Origin: Geovibrio ferrireducens | GTDB taxonomy: Bacteria; Chrysiogenota; Deferribacteres; Deferribacterales; Geovibrionaceae | Reading direction: 5' to 3' | Length of the DNA stretch: 64,000 bases | Assembly (NCBI RefSeq): GCF_026226615.1 | Contig: NZ_JAJAPB010000001.1 | Coordinates: 310,001-374,000 of the forward strand | Part shown: positions 46,821-53,009 of the stretch, piece by piece | Layout: the number at the start of each line of letters is the position of its first letter | Numbering within the stretch: position 1 is the stretch's first letter | Program-made: the position numbers and the translations under genes | Notes under the pieces: model-generated | Told to the model about the DNA's origin: nothing | Database searches by the model: none | The model's input: the letters and a program-made list of their open reading frames with translations, nothing else

Positions 46821-47105
46821 TTATCTGTGTCTGCCGTGCCTGTGTCTGCACGGGGTTATGGTTATCTTACTGGAGAGGCTGCCGCATATGCAGAGCCTGT
46901 TCCCTTCCAGATCCACTGTGATGTTCCCGTCTCCGGCATCTTCTATCACTTCGAGGATGCGCCCCTTTATGAAGCCGTAGTCTATGAGCCTGCGCACGGA
47001 CTGCCTGTCGCAGCATTTACAGAATCCTGCGATCTCGCATCTTTCTCCCTTTCTGACATCGGAGAGAGATACACTCTCTTCACCGCCAATAAAATTGCTG
47101 CACAT
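46821..47105 (-). CDS. FeoA-domain protein
   Basis: FeoA is a small SH3-like protein that assists FeoB in Fe2+ uptake. The 94-residue product has SLSDVRKGERCEIAGFCKCC, then RLIDYGFIKGRILEVIEDAGDGNITVDLEGNRLCI. It is unusually Cys-rich (CEIAGFCKCC and CIC). I set the start at the ATG at 47105 (GGGGTG upstream); the frame extends to 47162 without a ribosome site. A good sigma-70 promoter precedes it. A Fur gene lies divergently, and iron control is plausible. Confidence 0.85.
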   Translation of the reverse strand: MCSNFIGGEESVSLSDVRKGERCEIAGFCKCCDRQSVRRLIDYGFIKGRILEVIEDAGDGNITVDLEGNRLCICGSLSSKITITPCRHRHGRHR

Positions 47106-47150
47106 ATAAACACCCCGGAAAAGGCTCGAAACCCAGTTGTATAGTATTAT

Positions 47151-47178
47151 ATTGTAACCCATTAACTTAGTTTGTCAA
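47151..47178 (-). promoter_or_regulatory. Sigma-70-type promoter of the FeoA gene
   Basis: On the minus strand, TTGACA (47178-47173), a 16-bp spacer, then TACAAT (47156-47151). The -10 lies 46 bp before the chosen ATG. No convincing Fur box is visible over it. Confidence 0.7.
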
Positions 47179-47334
47179 TGTGAACATGGTGAGCGCTGAA
47201 AAACCTGTAAAATAAAATCTTTTTCCCAAAGGTGCAGACATCAAAAAAATATTGATTATTTTTACTAAAACTAATAAGTTTTTCTTAGAGGCTGTTGATA
47301 TGCGGTCTTAATACACAAGAAGACGGTTGTTATT

Positions 47335-47778
47335 ATGAAAAAAGAAACAAAAAACATCGCCCTGAGAAGGCTCTCTGAGTATTTATCCGAAAAAAAACTC
47401 CGCGCCACCAGCCAGAGGGAAATCATCCTCGGAACCTTTATTGAACTGGGCAGACACACAACAGCAGAAGAGCTTTACGAAGCTCTCAAAAAGCATGATT
47501 CAAGCATTGGGCATGCCACTGTGTATCGTGCGCTGAGGCTCTTTGTTGAGGCGGAAATAGCCCGCGAGCTCAATTTTAATGACGGTTCAGTCCGCTACGA
47601 GAGCGTGATCGGAAAAGAGCCCCATGATCACCTGATCTGCAAAAAATGCGGTGCAATGGTAGAATTTCTGGATGAGAAAATCCGTGATGCTCAGGATGAA
47701 ATTGCAAAAAAATACGGTTACTCAGTAAAAAACAGAAGCCACATTCTCTTCGGCGTATGTCCCAAATGCCGCAGATAA
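47335..47778 (+). CDS. Fur-family metalloregulator
   Basis: This is a 147-residue repressor. The winged HTH is LRATSQREIILGTFIELGRHTTAEELYEALKKHDSSIGHATVYRALRLF. The dimerisation/metal domain has EPHDHLICKKCGAMVEF and the C-terminal CPKC, which together give the Cys4 structural zinc site. Sequence alone does not separate Fur from PerR. The position between FeoA genes and mntP suits iron or manganese. The ATG at 47335 is preceded by AGACGG. Confidence 0.9.
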   Translation: MKKETKNIALRRLSEYLSEKKLRATSQREIILGTFIELGRHTTAEELYEALKKHDSSIGHATVYRALRLFVEAEIARELNFNDGSVRYESVIGKEPHDHLICKKCGAMVEFLDEKIRDAQDEIAKKYGYSVKNRSHILFGVCPKCRR

Positions 47779-47807
47779 GAGATTTTTCTAAATTCCATTA
47801 AATAACG

Positions 47808-47876
47808 TCAGGCGGATTATTTATACCTCTGTCCGTATTTATGCGGTTTTAAGGGGTTGAAAGATCCCGCCTGATG
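47808..47876 (+). ncRNA. Candidate structured 5' leader of mntP
   Basis: CGTCAGGCGG pairs with CCGCCTGATG across 69 nt, an outer stem of 10 bp with one G-U. Inside, ACCTCT can pair with AGGGGT, and CCGTA with TGCGG around a TTTA loop. So a three-tier cruciform-free hairpin fits between fur and mntP. It lacks the GGGGAGUAG-type loop I would expect of the yybP-ykoY Mn2+ riboswitch. It may be a different leader or an unusual fur terminator. Confidence 0.45.
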
Positions 47877-47913
47877 TCTTATCCTTAACACCGCAAAATC
47901 CCGTGAGGTTCAT

Positions 47914-48477
47914 ATGAATTTTTTCGAAGTCTTCTGGATTGCCGTGGGGCTGTCCATGGATGCTTTCGCCGTGTCCATTGCGTGCAGTGTTCTCCTTTGC
48001 CATGTCTCCTTCCGGCATATATTCCGCCTCGGCTTTCATTTCGGTCTTTTTCAGGCGGTTATGCCTGTTATAGGCTGGTTCGCGGGGAGAAGCGTCAGCG
48101 GGTACATAAGCGCATGGGATCACTGGGTGGCCTTCGGACTTCTCTCCGCCATAGGGCTTAAGGCGGTGAAGGAAGCTTTCAGTGACGATGATGGAGAGAA
48201 TATCAAGGGCGACCCCACAAGAGGGCTCAGTCTTATTTTCCTCTCTGTCGCCACCAGTATAGATGCCCTTGCTGTGGGCGTGAGCCTTGCTGCGGTGAAT
48301 GTGAATATTTTTCAGCCTGCACTCCTCATAGGGGTTATCACTGCCGCCTTCTCTGTAGTCGGCACGGTTTACGGATGCCGGATCGGGGCGCGCTTCGGCA
48401 AAAAGGTTGAGGCCGCTGGCGGAATAATCCTCATACTCATAGGCGTTAAGATCCTTCTGGAACACCTCCTCTCCTGA
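47914..48477 (+). CDS. mntP: Manganese efflux pump MntP
   Basis: This is a 187-residue, six-helix inner-membrane exporter (DUF204). The two repeats carry the family Asp residues: GLSMDAFAVSIACSVL and SVATSIDALAVGVSLAAV. GVITAAFSVVGTVYGCRIGARFGKKVEAAGGIILILIGVKILLEHL follows. The length and both signatures are normal. It lies downstream of fur and a structured leader; Mn- or Fur-linked control is plausible. Confidence 0.94.
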   Translation: MNFFEVFWIAVGLSMDAFAVSIACSVLLCHVSFRHIFRLGFHFGLFQAVMPVIGWFAGRSVSGYISAWDHWVAFGLLSAIGLKAVKEAFSDDDGENIKGDPTRGLSLIFLSVATSIDALAVGVSLAAVNVNIFQPALLIGVITAAFSVVGTVYGCRIGARFGKKVEAAGGIILILIGVKILLEHLLS

Positions 48478-48523
48478 AACCCTTTTTTTTAAAAATCTTT
48501 GATAATTTCTGACAGTTTATTCT

Positions 48524-48556
48524 TGACTTGCGCTATATAGTGATCTATATAGCGCA
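48524..48556 (+). promoter_or_regulatory. ModE-type operator overlapping the promoter of the TonB-receptor operon
   Basis: TGCGCTATATAG (48529-48540), TGAT, CTATATAGCGCA (48545-48556): a perfect 12-bp inverted repeat. Its core reads CGCTATATA-N6-TATATAGCG, which matches the ModE (molybdate/tungstate repressor) consensus as I know it, CGnTATATA-N6-TATATAnCG. A -35 TTGACT (48524) abuts the left arm, and a weak -10 lies in the right arm, so bound protein would block the promoter. Confidence 0.8.
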
Positions 48557-48600
48557 TATCCGTTATGTGCCAAGGGGAATAACGATATGGAGAAACTGAA

Positions 48601-50613
48601 ATGTTCAAGCAAAAAAGAATTCTGACCGCCGCGTGTCTCAGCGCGGCTCTGGTATTCAGTTCCGCCGCAAAGGCAGAGGAGCATATCTATAAACTTGGGG
48701 AAATAGAGATAACCGATTCCTCTTCATGGCTTAATGCAAAGCCCATGCAGGAAGTGACTTCCGAAGAAATTGAGGCTGGGTCGGCCTCAAGTGTTGCGGA
48801 AGCGCTCAAGCAGCTTCCTTCCGCATCCTTCGCTCCCAACTCAAAAGGGGAGAAGCGTCTTAATATCAGGGGTTTTTCAGACAGATACATTCAGGTGTAT
48901 TTTGACGGTATTCCCGTTGCCCTGCCCTACGAAGCCTATATTGATCTGGGCAATTACAACACATTCGGGATTGACAAGATCGAAGTTGAAACAGCAGGCG
49001 GTTCAGTTCTCTTCGGACCAAACGCCGCGGGAGGTGCAGTCAATATTGTCACCGCGAAACCTGAAAAGGCTTTTGAGTCCGCTGTTGAGCTTATGTACAG
49101 AACCAACAACACCTATCAGACAAGAATCGGCGTTGGAAGCAAGATAGGCAAAGCATACGGAATGATTTCCCTTGCTTATGAGGATTCGGAAGGATTCATG
49201 CTTCCGGACGGATACAGTGAGCTCAATGAAAACGGCGGTCTGCGTGATAACAGCGGCTACAGGAGAGCAACTGTAACAGGAAAAGTGGGCTATGAGTTCG
49301 CAAAGGGAAGTGAGATCGCTTTCGGCATAAACCATATAGAGAGCAGTCTTGAGCTTCCTCCGAACACAAAGGAAACGGACAACGGTAAAAACAACAGTCC
49401 CGTGCGTTACTGGAATTACGAAGACTGGGACAAGGACACATATTACCTCCTCGGAAGTCTGAGAAAAGACAGCTATGCGGTCACAGCAAGGCTCTACAGG
49501 GATGAATACTACAACGTGATGAACCGTTATAAGGATGCTTCATACAGTGAGTGCTTCAGCGCCTCATGGTGCGACAGCGCTTATGATGATCACTCCAACG
49601 GCGTTATCCTCAATACTGAGCTGAAAACCGGAGCAATCAATACCGTTATCCTCAGCGGACAATACAAAAAAGATGTTCACCGCACCAAAAACGCCTCCAT
49701 GGCAGAATGGGAAAAGGATGTGGCGGAAACCTACTTCGCCGGTGTCGAAGACAGGGTTACTCTGGGCAGGTTCATTGTCAGCCTCGGCGGCAGCTATGAG
49801 GTGAACAACGCGATCTCTTCGGACAGCAAGGATGAACTGAACGATGATATAAAGGTTTTCAATCCGCAGGCTGCGGTAATCTACAACATGTCTTCTGAAA
49901 CCGTATTCCATGTGAAAGCGGCGCGTAAGACACGCTTCCCCTCAATGAAGGAGCTGTACTCCAGTTATTCATATAACAACGGCGGACAGATAACTTATTT
50001 TGCCAACCCCGGGCTTAAGGAAGAAACTGCTATGAACTATGAGGCAGGTATTAAGCAGTCCCTGTTTGACACTGTTCTTCTTCAGGCGAATATCTTCTAT
50101 TCAAAAATTGATGACAAAATCAACACTAAAGCGCCCTACACCGGCAGTGATCCGGATGCCTCATCAGACGCGCAGACTTCTGATAACATAGATGACGTGA
50201 CAATGAAAGGCGTTGAGATGATGCTGGGGGGTGATTTCACCGTAAATACCACCACTATAGTTTCTTATGCCTACATAGATGCGAAAAAAAGCATAGAAGG
50301 TGATGATTCCGATACGGTTGCCGATGTGCCTAAACACAAGCTCTATCTGGATCATTCATACAGAATAGGGAAAATGTTTGTTCTCGGCGGCAGACTGAAT
50401 ATGGAAAAAGGACGTTATTCACAGAAAGCCGACTACAGCTACACCGAGCTGGATACCTATTGGACGGCAGATCTCAGAGCTGAGATTATTCCGGCTAAGT
50501 ACACCTCCATTGAGGTCGGCGTTGAAAATGTGGCGGATGAGGAGTACGAGCTCTCATACGGTCTGCCGCAGGCGGGAAGAACATACTACGCCAAGCTTAA
50601 AATGAAAATTTAA
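48601..50613 (+). CDS. TonB-dependent outer-membrane receptor (candidate molybdate/tungstate receptor)
   Basis: This is a 670-residue receptor. A signal peptide (ILTAACLSAALVFSSAAKA) is followed by a TonB-box-like YKLGEIEITD. The plug domain is residues about 45-150, with RLNIRGFSDRYIQVYFDGIPV and VETAGGSVLFGPNAAGGAVNIVTAK. A 22-strand-type barrel ends in YYAKLKMKI. It is the first gene after the ModE-type operator and is followed by a membrane-NTPase fusion and a dedicated TonB. The substrate is inferred from the operator only. Siderophore, haem or cobalamin receptors are the usual alternatives, but no such genes are nearby. Confidence 0.9.
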   Translation: MFKQKRILTAACLSAALVFSSAAKAEEHIYKLGEIEITDSSSWLNAKPMQEVTSEEIEAGSASSVAEALKQLPSASFAPNSKGEKRLNIRGFSDRYIQVYFDGIPVALPYEAYIDLGNYNTFGIDKIEVETAGGSVLFGPNAAGGAVNIVTAKPEKAFESAVELMYRTNNTYQTRIGVGSKIGKAYGMISLAYEDSEGFMLPDGYSELNENGGLRDNSGYRRATVTGKVGYEFAKGSEIAFGINHIESSLELPPNTKETDNGKNNSPVRYWNYEDWDKDTYYLLGSLRKDSYAVTARLYRDEYYNVMNRYKDASYSECFSASWCDSAYDDHSNGVILNTELKTGAINTVILSGQYKKDVHRTKNASMAEWEKDVAETYFAGVEDRVTLGRFIVSLGGSYEVNNAISSDSKDELNDDIKVFNPQAAVIYNMSSETVFHVKAARKTRFPSMKELYSSYSYNNGGQITYFANPGLKEETAMNYEAGIKQSLFDTVLLQANIFYSKIDDKINTKAPYTGSDPDASSDAQTSDNIDDVTMKGVEMMLGGDFTVNTTTIVSYAYIDAKKSIEGDDSDTVADVPKHKLYLDHSYRIGKMFVLGGRLNMEKGRYSQKADYSYTELDTYWTADLRAEIIPAKYTSIEVGVENVADEEYELSYGLPQAGRTYYAKLKMKI

Positions 50614-50614
50614 T

Positions 50615-52231
50615 ATGTCACTGGCCGACAGCAGCGACGATAAATGGAGAAAAGGAGCCATAGCGGGGGGTGTCTGGGGGACCTCCGAGATGACCCTCGG
50701 CTCTTTTCTTCATAATCTGAGGATCCCTTTTAAGGGGCATTTTCTCACGGCAATAGGCATTGCTGTGCTCAGTGCCTTCGGAACAAAATGGCGTACCAAG
50801 GGGATGTTTTACAGGGCGGGGCTTACCTCCGCTATGCTGAAAACCTTTTCACCCAGCCCTAAGGTCGTTGTTCCGATGATAGCAATTACCATCGAGAGCT
50901 TTCTGTTTGAGGCGGGAACACGCATTCTCGGTAGAAATTTCAGCGGCTTCCTATTAAGCGGCGGACTCGCCATGCAGTGGGCGGTACTTCACAAAGTAAT
51001 CCGGTTGCTGATGCTTTACGGAGCCAGCATATATTTTGTTTATGAGCAGCTTTTTGAAAAAGCAGCCACAGGTTTTGAGCTTCCGTTTGTCAGCCCTGTG
51101 TACGGTATAGTTTTTATATTTGCGCTGAGTTTTGTTCTCGGTGCAGGTGCTTCTGCCATAGGCTGTGCGGCAGCAGCGAGAAGCAAGGGAAGTGGTGAAC
51201 CCATAACATTCGGAATAAAGCAGGGTGCTCCATTGGGCTCTGTTATGCAAGGCCGCGCGGGGCGTTATTCACTCCTGTGGCTGTTTCTGCACATAGGGGT
51301 GATAGTCGCTGTCGTGGGCTTTATGGATAAAAGTGAGTGGCTCGCATATGTGCTGCTGGTTTACTCACTGGCTGTTTCTGTCAGGTACAGAAACTTTCTG
51401 AAACGGTTCGCCTCGTGGAAGATATGGCTGCCAATAGCGGTTGTATCGTTCATTTCCGGTTTCGTGCTGAAATCACCGGAAGGCAGCTTCTTCAGCACTC
51501 ATGGATTTCTTGAGGGTGTAAGGCTTGCTGTGCGGGCATTTGTAACAACATGCGCTCTGAGCGGACTGGTCTCCGAGATGGGGCATCCGCTGATAGCAGA
51601 CTTCTTCCGACGCAGATACGGCGACAGAATAGACTCGGTGCTTGAGCTTGCGTGGGGCACTGTTGGCACAGTGACTCCCCATGTAAATGTTAAGGCGTTG
51701 CTGAGAAACCCTGTAAGCGGTATAGCAGTTATGATGGACTCTGTTCTGGACAGCGGCGGAAGCAAGGCGGTACTCATTACCGGAGAGGTTAACGGAGGCA
51801 AAACATCTTATCTTAAGGCTTTTCTCAAAACACTGCCTGATGGAGCAGATGTCAGGGGGTTTACAGCGGAAGGCATATATGAGGACGGTATGAAAACAGG
51901 TTACAGGATCCGAGATATAAAAACAGGTGAATCCTCCGAATTGTGCAGACGCAGTAAAAGCGGTTTTGTGTTTGATGCCGACGGACTGGCATTCGGGGAA
52001 AAAAGCATGGGTGACGTCCCGTATAAAAATGTTTATACGGTTCTTGATGAAATAGGACGCTATGAGATTCGGGGCGGCGGATGGGACAGCCTTCTTAAAA
52101 AGGTCACAGCCGGAGGCGCGATACCCGTCATAACTGTGAGGCAGAACCTAGTTGATGCAGTATGCTCCCGCTACGGTCTCAGAAATGTGGAAATATATGA
52201 TGTTGAAGATACAGGCAGACAGGCGCAATGA
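50615..52231 (+). CDS. Polytopic membrane protein fused to a THEP1-like P-loop NTPase (ECF-transporter-like)
   Basis: This is a 538-residue protein. The first 370 residues hold many membrane segments. Residues about 14-190 (GGVWGTSEMTLGSFLHNLRI, FKGHFLTAIGIAVLSAFG) recall ECF substrate-binding (S) components. Residues about 210-370 (EGVRLAVRAFVTTCALSGLV) recall EcfT. The C-terminal 150 residues are an NTPase like THEP1: Walker A GEVNGGKTSYL, RGFTAEGIYEDGMKTGYRIRD and Walker B YTVLDEIGRYEI. ABC signature LSGGQ is absent. It begins 2 bp after the receptor gene and overlaps the tonB gene. I infer a one-chain inner-membrane importer or its energiser. The S/EcfT resemblance is by pattern only. Confidence 0.7.
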   Translation: MSLADSSDDKWRKGAIAGGVWGTSEMTLGSFLHNLRIPFKGHFLTAIGIAVLSAFGTKWRTKGMFYRAGLTSAMLKTFSPSPKVVVPMIAITIESFLFEAGTRILGRNFSGFLLSGGLAMQWAVLHKVIRLLMLYGASIYFVYEQLFEKAATGFELPFVSPVYGIVFIFALSFVLGAGASAIGCAAAARSKGSGEPITFGIKQGAPLGSVMQGRAGRYSLLWLFLHIGVIVAVVGFMDKSEWLAYVLLVYSLAVSVRYRNFLKRFASWKIWLPIAVVSFISGFVLKSPEGSFFSTHGFLEGVRLAVRAFVTTCALSGLVSEMGHPLIADFFRRRYGDRIDSVLELAWGTVGTVTPHVNVKALLRNPVSGIAVMMDSVLDSGGSKAVLITGEVNGGKTSYLKAFLKTLPDGADVRGFTAEGIYEDGMKTGYRIRDIKTGESSELCRRSKSGFVFDADGLAFGEKSMGDVPYKNVYTVLDEIGRYEIRGGGWDSLLKKVTAGGAIPVITVRQNLVDAVCSRYGLRNVEIYDVEDTGRQAQ

Positions 52232-52946
52232 CGGAAACTCCCGCCTGATTGTTTTCACAGGCTTTTCCGTACTGGTTCATATTATGGTTCTGCATCTTGC
52301 GGAACCGATTCAGATAAAAAGTACAGCGGAATCCGGGGGTTCCGTTGCCGTAACACTCATAAGCAGATACAGGGCGGCGGAGCCTAAGCATGAGTTCCTC
52401 GTCTCAGAAGCAAAAGCTCCGTCCTCCTCTGCCTCTGTATCCCGAAAACCGAAACCTCCCGCAGAGCATCCCGCTGTCTCAGCGAAAGCCGTTGAGCAGA
52501 TACTCCGCGAAGAGCCCGATGAATCCGGTGCGGAAATTGTTTCCGGAAGAGAGAAAAAAACAGATGCGGAATCTGAGCCTGCTGAAAAACCGGCGGCACT
52601 GCATTTCCCCTCCGCCCTGTCTGCGGAATCGGCGCCTGAGGCTGCTGCCCCTGTTCTTACCGAACAGGAAATGAGTTTCCTCACCGAACACATGCGGCAG
52701 AAGGTGCGTTCGCAGCTTACTTATCCTCAATTGGCAAGGAGAATGGGCTGGAACGGAACAGTTATGCTGAGGGTTTACCTCACGGAAAACGGCGGGGTTG
52801 AAAAAACAGAGATTATACTGAGCTCAGGCTTTAAGGCTTTGGACAAAGAGGCATTTGAGAGCGTTTACCGTGCGGCGCCGTACGAAAATCACACCGGGGA
52901 AGAAGTTATTGTTGAACTCCCCGTGCGCTTCAGCCTCAGCGGCTGA
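52197..52946 (+). CDS. TonB energy transducer
   Basis: This is a 249-residue TonB. The N-terminal membrane anchor is LIVFTGFSVLVHIMVLHL. A long Pro/Ala/Glu-rich periplasmic spacer follows (residues about 50-165). The C-terminal TonB domain has YPQLARRMGWNGTVMLRVYLTENGGVEKTEIILSSGFKALDKEAFE. I chose the ATG at 52197 (GTGGAAA upstream), which overlaps the preceding gene by 35 bp. No ExbB/ExbD genes are adjacent, so it must use those encoded elsewhere. It presumably serves the receptor of this operon. Confidence 0.9.
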   Translation: MMLKIQADRRNDGNSRLIVFTGFSVLVHIMVLHLAEPIQIKSTAESGGSVAVTLISRYRAAEPKHEFLVSEAKAPSSSASVSRKPKPPAEHPAVSAKAVEQILREEPDESGAEIVSGREKKTDAESEPAEKPAALHFPSALSAESAPEAAAPVLTEQEMSFLTEHMRQKVRSQLTYPQLARRMGWNGTVMLRVYLTENGGVEKTEIILSSGFKALDKEAFESVYRAAPYENHTGEEVIVELPVRFSLSG

Positions 52947-52951
52947 TAAAT

Positions 52952-52987
52952 ATAAACCCGCCGAAGAATGCTCCGGCGGGTTTTTTG
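52952..52987 (+). terminator. Rho-independent terminator of the TonB-receptor operon
   Basis: AACCCGCCG pairs with CGGCGGGTT around AAGAATGCTC, followed by six T. It marks the operon end. Confidence 0.9.
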
Positions 52988-53009
52988 TCGGTTTATTAAG
53001 GAGAAAAGA

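Follow-up and report, generated by a model that had tools for sequence, protein, structure and literature searches.

A candidate ModE-controlled, TonB-dependent operon for molybdate or tungstate uptake in Geovibrio ferrireducens

A 4.4-kb operon in the genome of Geovibrio ferrireducens (positions 48523-52988 of the 64-kb stretch of DNA analysed here, hereafter referred to as the window) appears to point to an undescribed, widespread and energy-driven route for molybdenum or tungsten (Mo/W) through the bacterial outer membrane. Molybdate is generally taken to cross this membrane through porins. We consider it likely that the operon, which encodes a TonB-dependent receptor (TBDR), a membrane protein fused to an NTPase domain and a TonB protein, serves import under molybdenum starvation, with repression by ModE and TonB-powered uptake of molybdate, tungstate or a chelate. 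In silico, regulation of the operon by ModE is close to certain, and the proposed import function and substrate (molybdate, tungstate or a chelate) appear well supported. The parts are of known kinds; their combination and probable cargo are new. The computational support consists of the operator sites, a ModE gene, two further operons under the same control (modE-modCAB and modABC), conservation in related genomes, and the recurrence in Bacteroidota of the same gene set with ModE-type genes and sites.

The operon promoter is predicted on the forward strand at 48523-48551, with a -35 element (TTGACT, 48523-48528), a 17-bp spacer and a -10 element (TATATA, 48546-48551). This promoter (TTGACT-N17-TATATA) was absent from the listing of the automatic promoter scan because its -10 hexamer lacks the final T, and the call is therefore based on direct reading of the sequence and on conservation in two relatives, since the -35 element is kept in two same-genus promoters. 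The -10 element falls within ModE site 1 (48529-48556, no strand), so that operator and promoter overlap. The two arms of this site (48529-48540 and 48545-48556) are perfectly complementary over 12 bp each and are separated by a 4-bp spacer, and its core at 48531-48554 reads CGCTATATA-GTGATC-TATATAGCG, i.e., CGCTATATA-N6-TATATAGCG. Compared with the published ModE consensus ATCGNTATATA-N6-TATATANCGAT (PMC545781), the core carries no mismatch over the 16 defined positions, while the outer AT/AT is not kept; another published form of the consensus is ATCGCTATATA-N6-TATATAACGAT (PMC2700814). Both the perfect 12-bp inverted repeat over the promoter and the ModE-consensus match of its core, as claimed in the initial annotation, were thus borne out. 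Site 1 is also the sole core match with three or fewer mismatches in the window (shuffle mean 0.10).

A second ModE-type site, CGTTATGTGCCAAGGGGAATAACG (48561-48584, no strand), follows site 1 at a distance of 30 bp, or about three helical turns, and lies ahead of the Shine-Dalgarno sequence. It was not part of the initial annotation and surfaced through a whole-genome scan with the relaxed half-site pattern CGNTAT-N12-ATANCG, which yielded six sites against 2.9 expected, with one site for the reversed-pattern control. Five of the six, including the newly found site 2, are located at the receptor operon, modE-modCAB, modABC or the transport-like operon described below. As the loci themselves had contributed in part to the relaxed motif (through inspection of palindromes in the Bacteroidota loci), the motif was checked by a spacer control, whole-genome counts and a count in the host's own genome. 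ModE is also able to activate genes; one site over the -10 element and another at the transcript start would fit repression, which we infer from their position.

We further examined how ModE sites are distributed in the 2.97-Mb genome. From base composition, 0.0008 exact core matches are expected by chance, 0.04 at one or fewer mismatches and 0.9 at two or fewer, whereas one exact site, two with one mismatch and one with two mismatches were observed. The three sites at one or fewer mismatches are those at the receptor-operon promoter, modE-modCAB and modABC. The genome encodes a full-length ModE of 263 aa with a LysR-type helix-turn-helix (HTH) and two TOBE/Mop domains (L001/L021; PF00126 2e-8, two TOBE 5e-31, Mop 4e-44, ModE_repress 1e-27), which scores just below the 98.5 cut-off of TIGR00637 (98.0 bits genome-wide, 96.1 in hmmscan). 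One of the one-mismatch sites abuts the modE start codon in an operon ordered modE-modC-modA-modB, and the other lies roughly 20 bp upstream of modA in the modABC operon, near a molybdopterin-oxidoreductase cluster (C3:289952 and C13:35045, respectively). The initial annotation had named two observations that would speak against it, namely a genome devoid of modE or a palindrome found only before unrelated genes; a full-length modE is present and the same site precedes both mod operons, and the proposal therefore withstood this check.

These counts also bear on whether the palindrome arose by chance in the AT-rich -10 region of an ordinary siderophore operon, controlled by Fur or constitutively. 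Partial matches to ModE cores come about readily, since these cores are rich in TATA and coincide with -10 elements, and at two mismatches nearly one site per genome is expected. Such an origin is nevertheless highly improbable, given the very low expectation for an exact match, the presence of two sites, their conservation at orthologous and rearranged loci, and the related operator in Bacteroidota.

The two-mismatch site (C2:215124, CGCTATGAAGTAAACTATATAGCG, outer ATCG...CGAT) is positioned 16 bp before a three-gene transport-like operon outside the window (G000:C2:212060-215147 = L023:5061-8148), which encodes an SBP_bac_6/DUF1858 binding protein, a CobW/HypB-type GTPase and an ABC ATPase but no permease. 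Both same-genus genomes retain this site, and the operon may be a further Mo/W-linked system for transport or trafficking. In several genomes of the phylum, sites again adjoin modE. Perfect ModE sites were likewise seen near modE in two genomes of other families of the phylum (L154:989 and L154:1818; L161:980) and could contribute to a ModE matrix for the whole phylum, and HTH-only ModE-like regulators that lack Mop domains were noted at G000:C2:18118-18351 (L002:1408-1782) and L038:10280-10660.

ModE-type sensors bind both molybdate and tungstate, which leaves room for a narrower form of the import reading, in which the operon is mainly tungstate-responsive and feeds tungstoenzymes while ModABC supplies molybdate. 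Two Mod-type ABC systems are already co-regulated, and a third route might therefore serve the rarer oxyanion. We regard this restriction to tungstate as unlikely, as no sequence feature separates Mo from W and the molybdopterin oxidoreductase genes adjoining modABC could use either metal.

The operon itself is compact. The TBDR gene (48601-50613, forward strand; 670 aa), preceded by a Shine-Dalgarno sequence (GGAGA, 48589-48593), is separated by 1 bp from the membrane-NTPase gene (50615-52231, forward strand; 538 aa), the 3' end of which is overlapped by the start of the TonB-family energy transducer gene (52197-52946, forward strand; ATG at 52197 or 52200). A bidirectional intrinsic terminator (AAACCCGCCG...CGGCGGGTTTTTTG, 52954-52988, no strand), a hairpin followed by a T run, closes the unit. 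Pfam matches were obtained for TonB_dep_Rec and Plug (PF00593, 6e-36; PF07715, 2e-19), NTPase_1 (PF03266) and TonB_C (PF03544, 6.5e-16; also TIGR01352), and the tight arrangement of these genes described earlier was confirmed. ModA, ModB and ModC were not found in this operon; the two Mod-type systems lie elsewhere in the genome. Just upstream (46821-48477), a FeoA-domain gene on the minus strand, a Fur-family regulator and an MntP-type manganese efflux gene form a metal-homeostasis neighbourhood.

Both the plug and the beta-barrel of the TBDR score above cut-off, and a signal peptide was identified by reading. The protein matches siderophore/B12-type families, but scores far below every named subfamily cut-off; in profile comparisons, the solved structures nearest to it are those of Cir, BtuB and FpvA. 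Homologous receptors occur in operons of Deferribacterales and Bacteroidota. The resemblance to catecholate-siderophore and B12 receptors (Cir, BtuB), the Fur-family gene and mntP next to the operon, and the presence in the predicted Geobacter ModE regulon of genes without an obvious tie to molybdenum (PMC2700814) would be expected if ModE controlled a receptor for a different cargo, such as a chelate of iron or another metal, or a pterin or cofactor needed when molybdenum status changes. However, the other low-mismatch sites in the genome occur only at modE-modCAB, modABC and the one transport-like operon, and the Bacteroidota operon adjoins ModE-like genes, with molybdenum cofactor (Moco) or molybdoenzyme genes in a few loci; a cargo other than Mo/W is thus distinctly unlikely. 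Fur control, as in Fur-regulated siderophore uptake, was considered and rejected, as the best Fur-box match in the promoter (11/19) was no better than shuffles (mean 11.1).

The membrane-NTPase protein is the putative inner-membrane partner of the receptor. Its AlphaFold2 (AF2) model reached a pLDDT of 83 with 61 sequences (60 with 6 sequences), and the predicted architecture comprises about six helices, then about four (about 10 transmembrane helices in total), followed by a THEP1-like NTPase domain. The P-loop residue K396 and D478/E479 are invariant across the 61 sequences, all of which contain PF03266; 38 of the 61 also weakly match DUF2478 and 31 match MobB. The membrane part of the family has no Pfam match, and a Foldseek search with the whole model returned THEP1 as the only significant match, with no transporter fold for the membrane part. 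The arrangement of six plus about four helices led us to consider fused S and T components of an ECF transporter, a candidate that found no support: hhalign of the membrane part with 23 CbiQ proteins from the phylum yielded no match (probability below 1%), and Foldseek, run on the whole model, matched the NTPase domain alone. Relatives of the fusion protein were absent from the plasmid collection.

We also compared the locus across the family, which includes Seleniivibrio, and found full-length relatives of the membrane-NTPase protein in five other genomes. Sites 1 and 2 are both conserved in two same-genus genomes (G021 and G022). In an alignment with these genomes, the G021 promoter is unrelated upstream of the -35 element, yet the -35 element, site 1, site 2 and the Shine-Dalgarno sequence are kept; in G021, the NTPase gene is also immediately followed by a ModE gene of the HTH-only type. 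In G022 (L043:8786-9646), a deletion has left the first 39 NTPase codons fused in frame to TonB, while the ModE sites, the TBDR and the chimeric TonB remain; the set of parts is thus not always intact. In four further family genomes, the same genes again stand behind ModE-type sites: in G018, the TBDR and NTPase genes stand behind a one-mismatch site, and in three Seleniivibrio-type genomes, where no TBDR is adjacent, CGNTAT-N12-ATAACG sites lie about 20 bp before the NTPase gene. ModE is encoded in all family genomes compared (G018, G021, G022 and the three Seleniivibrio-type genomes).

Beyond the family, 244 relatives of the membrane-NTPase protein were detected in genome contigs, and the best 80 of the 244 were nearly all from Bacteroidota (members of the fusion family: loci L038-L041, and L047-L123 from Bacteroidota). 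Clustering of neighbouring genes in 76 Bacteroidota loci placed a DUF364/DUF4213 gene immediately upstream of the NTPase gene in 29; short ModE-like HTH genes were present in 8 loci, and a homologous TBDR in 7. In most of these loci, neither a TBDR nor a ModE gene lay in the flanks retrieved, many contigs being short. Where present, the usual order is ModE-TBDR-DUF364-NTPase, with an HTH-only ModE heading the operon. Relatives of mocA (6 of 76), xdhC (3) and molybdopterin oxidoreductases (3) also occur nearby, and locus L086 runs on into MoeA and a MOSC protein, as annotated by reading. DUF364 genes have a published context with Mo/W transporters (PMC2954201); the host genome has a single one (G000:C1:81529-81915), located away from the operon.

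The strict ModE core (two or fewer mismatches) had no match in the Bacteroidota loci, and palindromes in these loci identified the operator as the outer half-sites CGTTAT-N12-ATAACG. Across 1.0 Mb of NTPase-family loci, Deferribacterales loci included, the pattern CGNTAT-N12-ATANCG gave 15 sites, 12 of them before receptor, DUF364 or NTPase genes, whereas eight other spacers together gave 11 sites, with one before genes of the system. Eight Bacteroidota genomes were scanned whole; six of them contain CGTTAT-N12-ATAACG at one or two sites each, nine in all, of which eight are in the receptor operon. These sites and neighbours provide evidence from a second phylum that would tie the receptor and the NTPase protein to molybdenum control.

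Under the proposed import of Mo/W, ModE dimers loaded with the oxyanion would occupy the two in-phase sites, over the -10 element and just downstream, when molybdate (or tungstate) is sufficient, and would thereby block transcription. When molybdate is scarce, ModE would leave, and the receptor, the dedicated TonB and the NTPase protein would be made. The receptor would then draw molybdate, tungstate or a chelate through the outer membrane, energised by the TonB of the operon, and the inner-membrane protein, with its cytoplasmic P-loop NTPase, may serve passage of the same cargo across the inner membrane or its handling there, beside the co-regulated ModABC. Where present, DUF364 may process the chelate or the metal, which would agree with the context published for it (PMC2954201). 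A more ambitious model, which we advance tentatively while leaning slightly against it, is a complete two-membrane uptake system, in which a Mo/W-specific TBDR (probably for a chelate) would work with a new family of inner-membrane importers whose polytopic domain is driven or gated by the fused THEP1-like NTPase. Such a system would extend over at least two phyla under ModE-type control, and in Bacteroidota DUF364 would act on the metal or chelate.

Sulfidic habitats turn molybdate into poorly available thiomolybdates, and the operon yields a testable prediction on anaerobes that compete for scarce molybdenum or tungsten in such habitats. If the TonB-powered, ModE-controlled route is true, Mo/W would join the short list of TonB substrates, and a function would be gained for a large uncharacterised membrane-NTPase family and for DUF364 in Bacteroidota. 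A ModE-controlled TBDR was not found in the freely readable literature searched, and subscription papers may hold an earlier mention; molybdenum and tungsten go unmentioned in a review of TonB substrates from 2024 (PMC11658791).

Several known systems come close to the operon or its parts. Like the THEP1/NTPase_1 P-loop NTPases (1ye8, 2i3b), the membrane-NTPase protein has a domain with invariant Walker residues, here C-terminal and, unlike in THEP1, fused to about 10 predicted transmembrane helices. With the TonB-dependent receptors for siderophores and cobalamin (Cir, FpvA, BtuB), the receptor shares the plug and beta-barrel and a TonB gene in the operon, but it falls far below every named subfamily cut-off, has a ModE operator and no Fur box, and is accompanied by an inner-membrane partner other than an ABC permease. 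The DUF364/DUF4213 'heavy-metal chelation' proteins (Dhaf4260) have been described in the neighbourhood of transporters for molybdate, tungstate and vanadium (PMC2954201), and DUF364 is the immediate upstream partner of the NTPase gene in 29 of the 76 Bacteroidota loci; the window operon has no DUF364 gene. In the IcmP-dependent delivery of Pseudomonas aeruginosa, ModA is secreted and brings molybdate in by way of a protein of the outer membrane (as cited in PMC11734730); that system depends on type VI secretion of ModA and is not reported there as a TonB-dependent receptor or as ModE-controlled. Relative to the ModE-repressed modABC operons of E. coli and Geobacter sulfurreducens, the present genes serve the outer membrane (TBDR and TonB), the membrane-NTPase protein matches no ModB or ModC family, and two sites stand in tandem; what they have in common is the regulator type, the core ATCGNTATATA-N6-TATATANCGAT (PMC545781, PMC2700814) and the placement of a site at, or close to, a transport-operon promoter.
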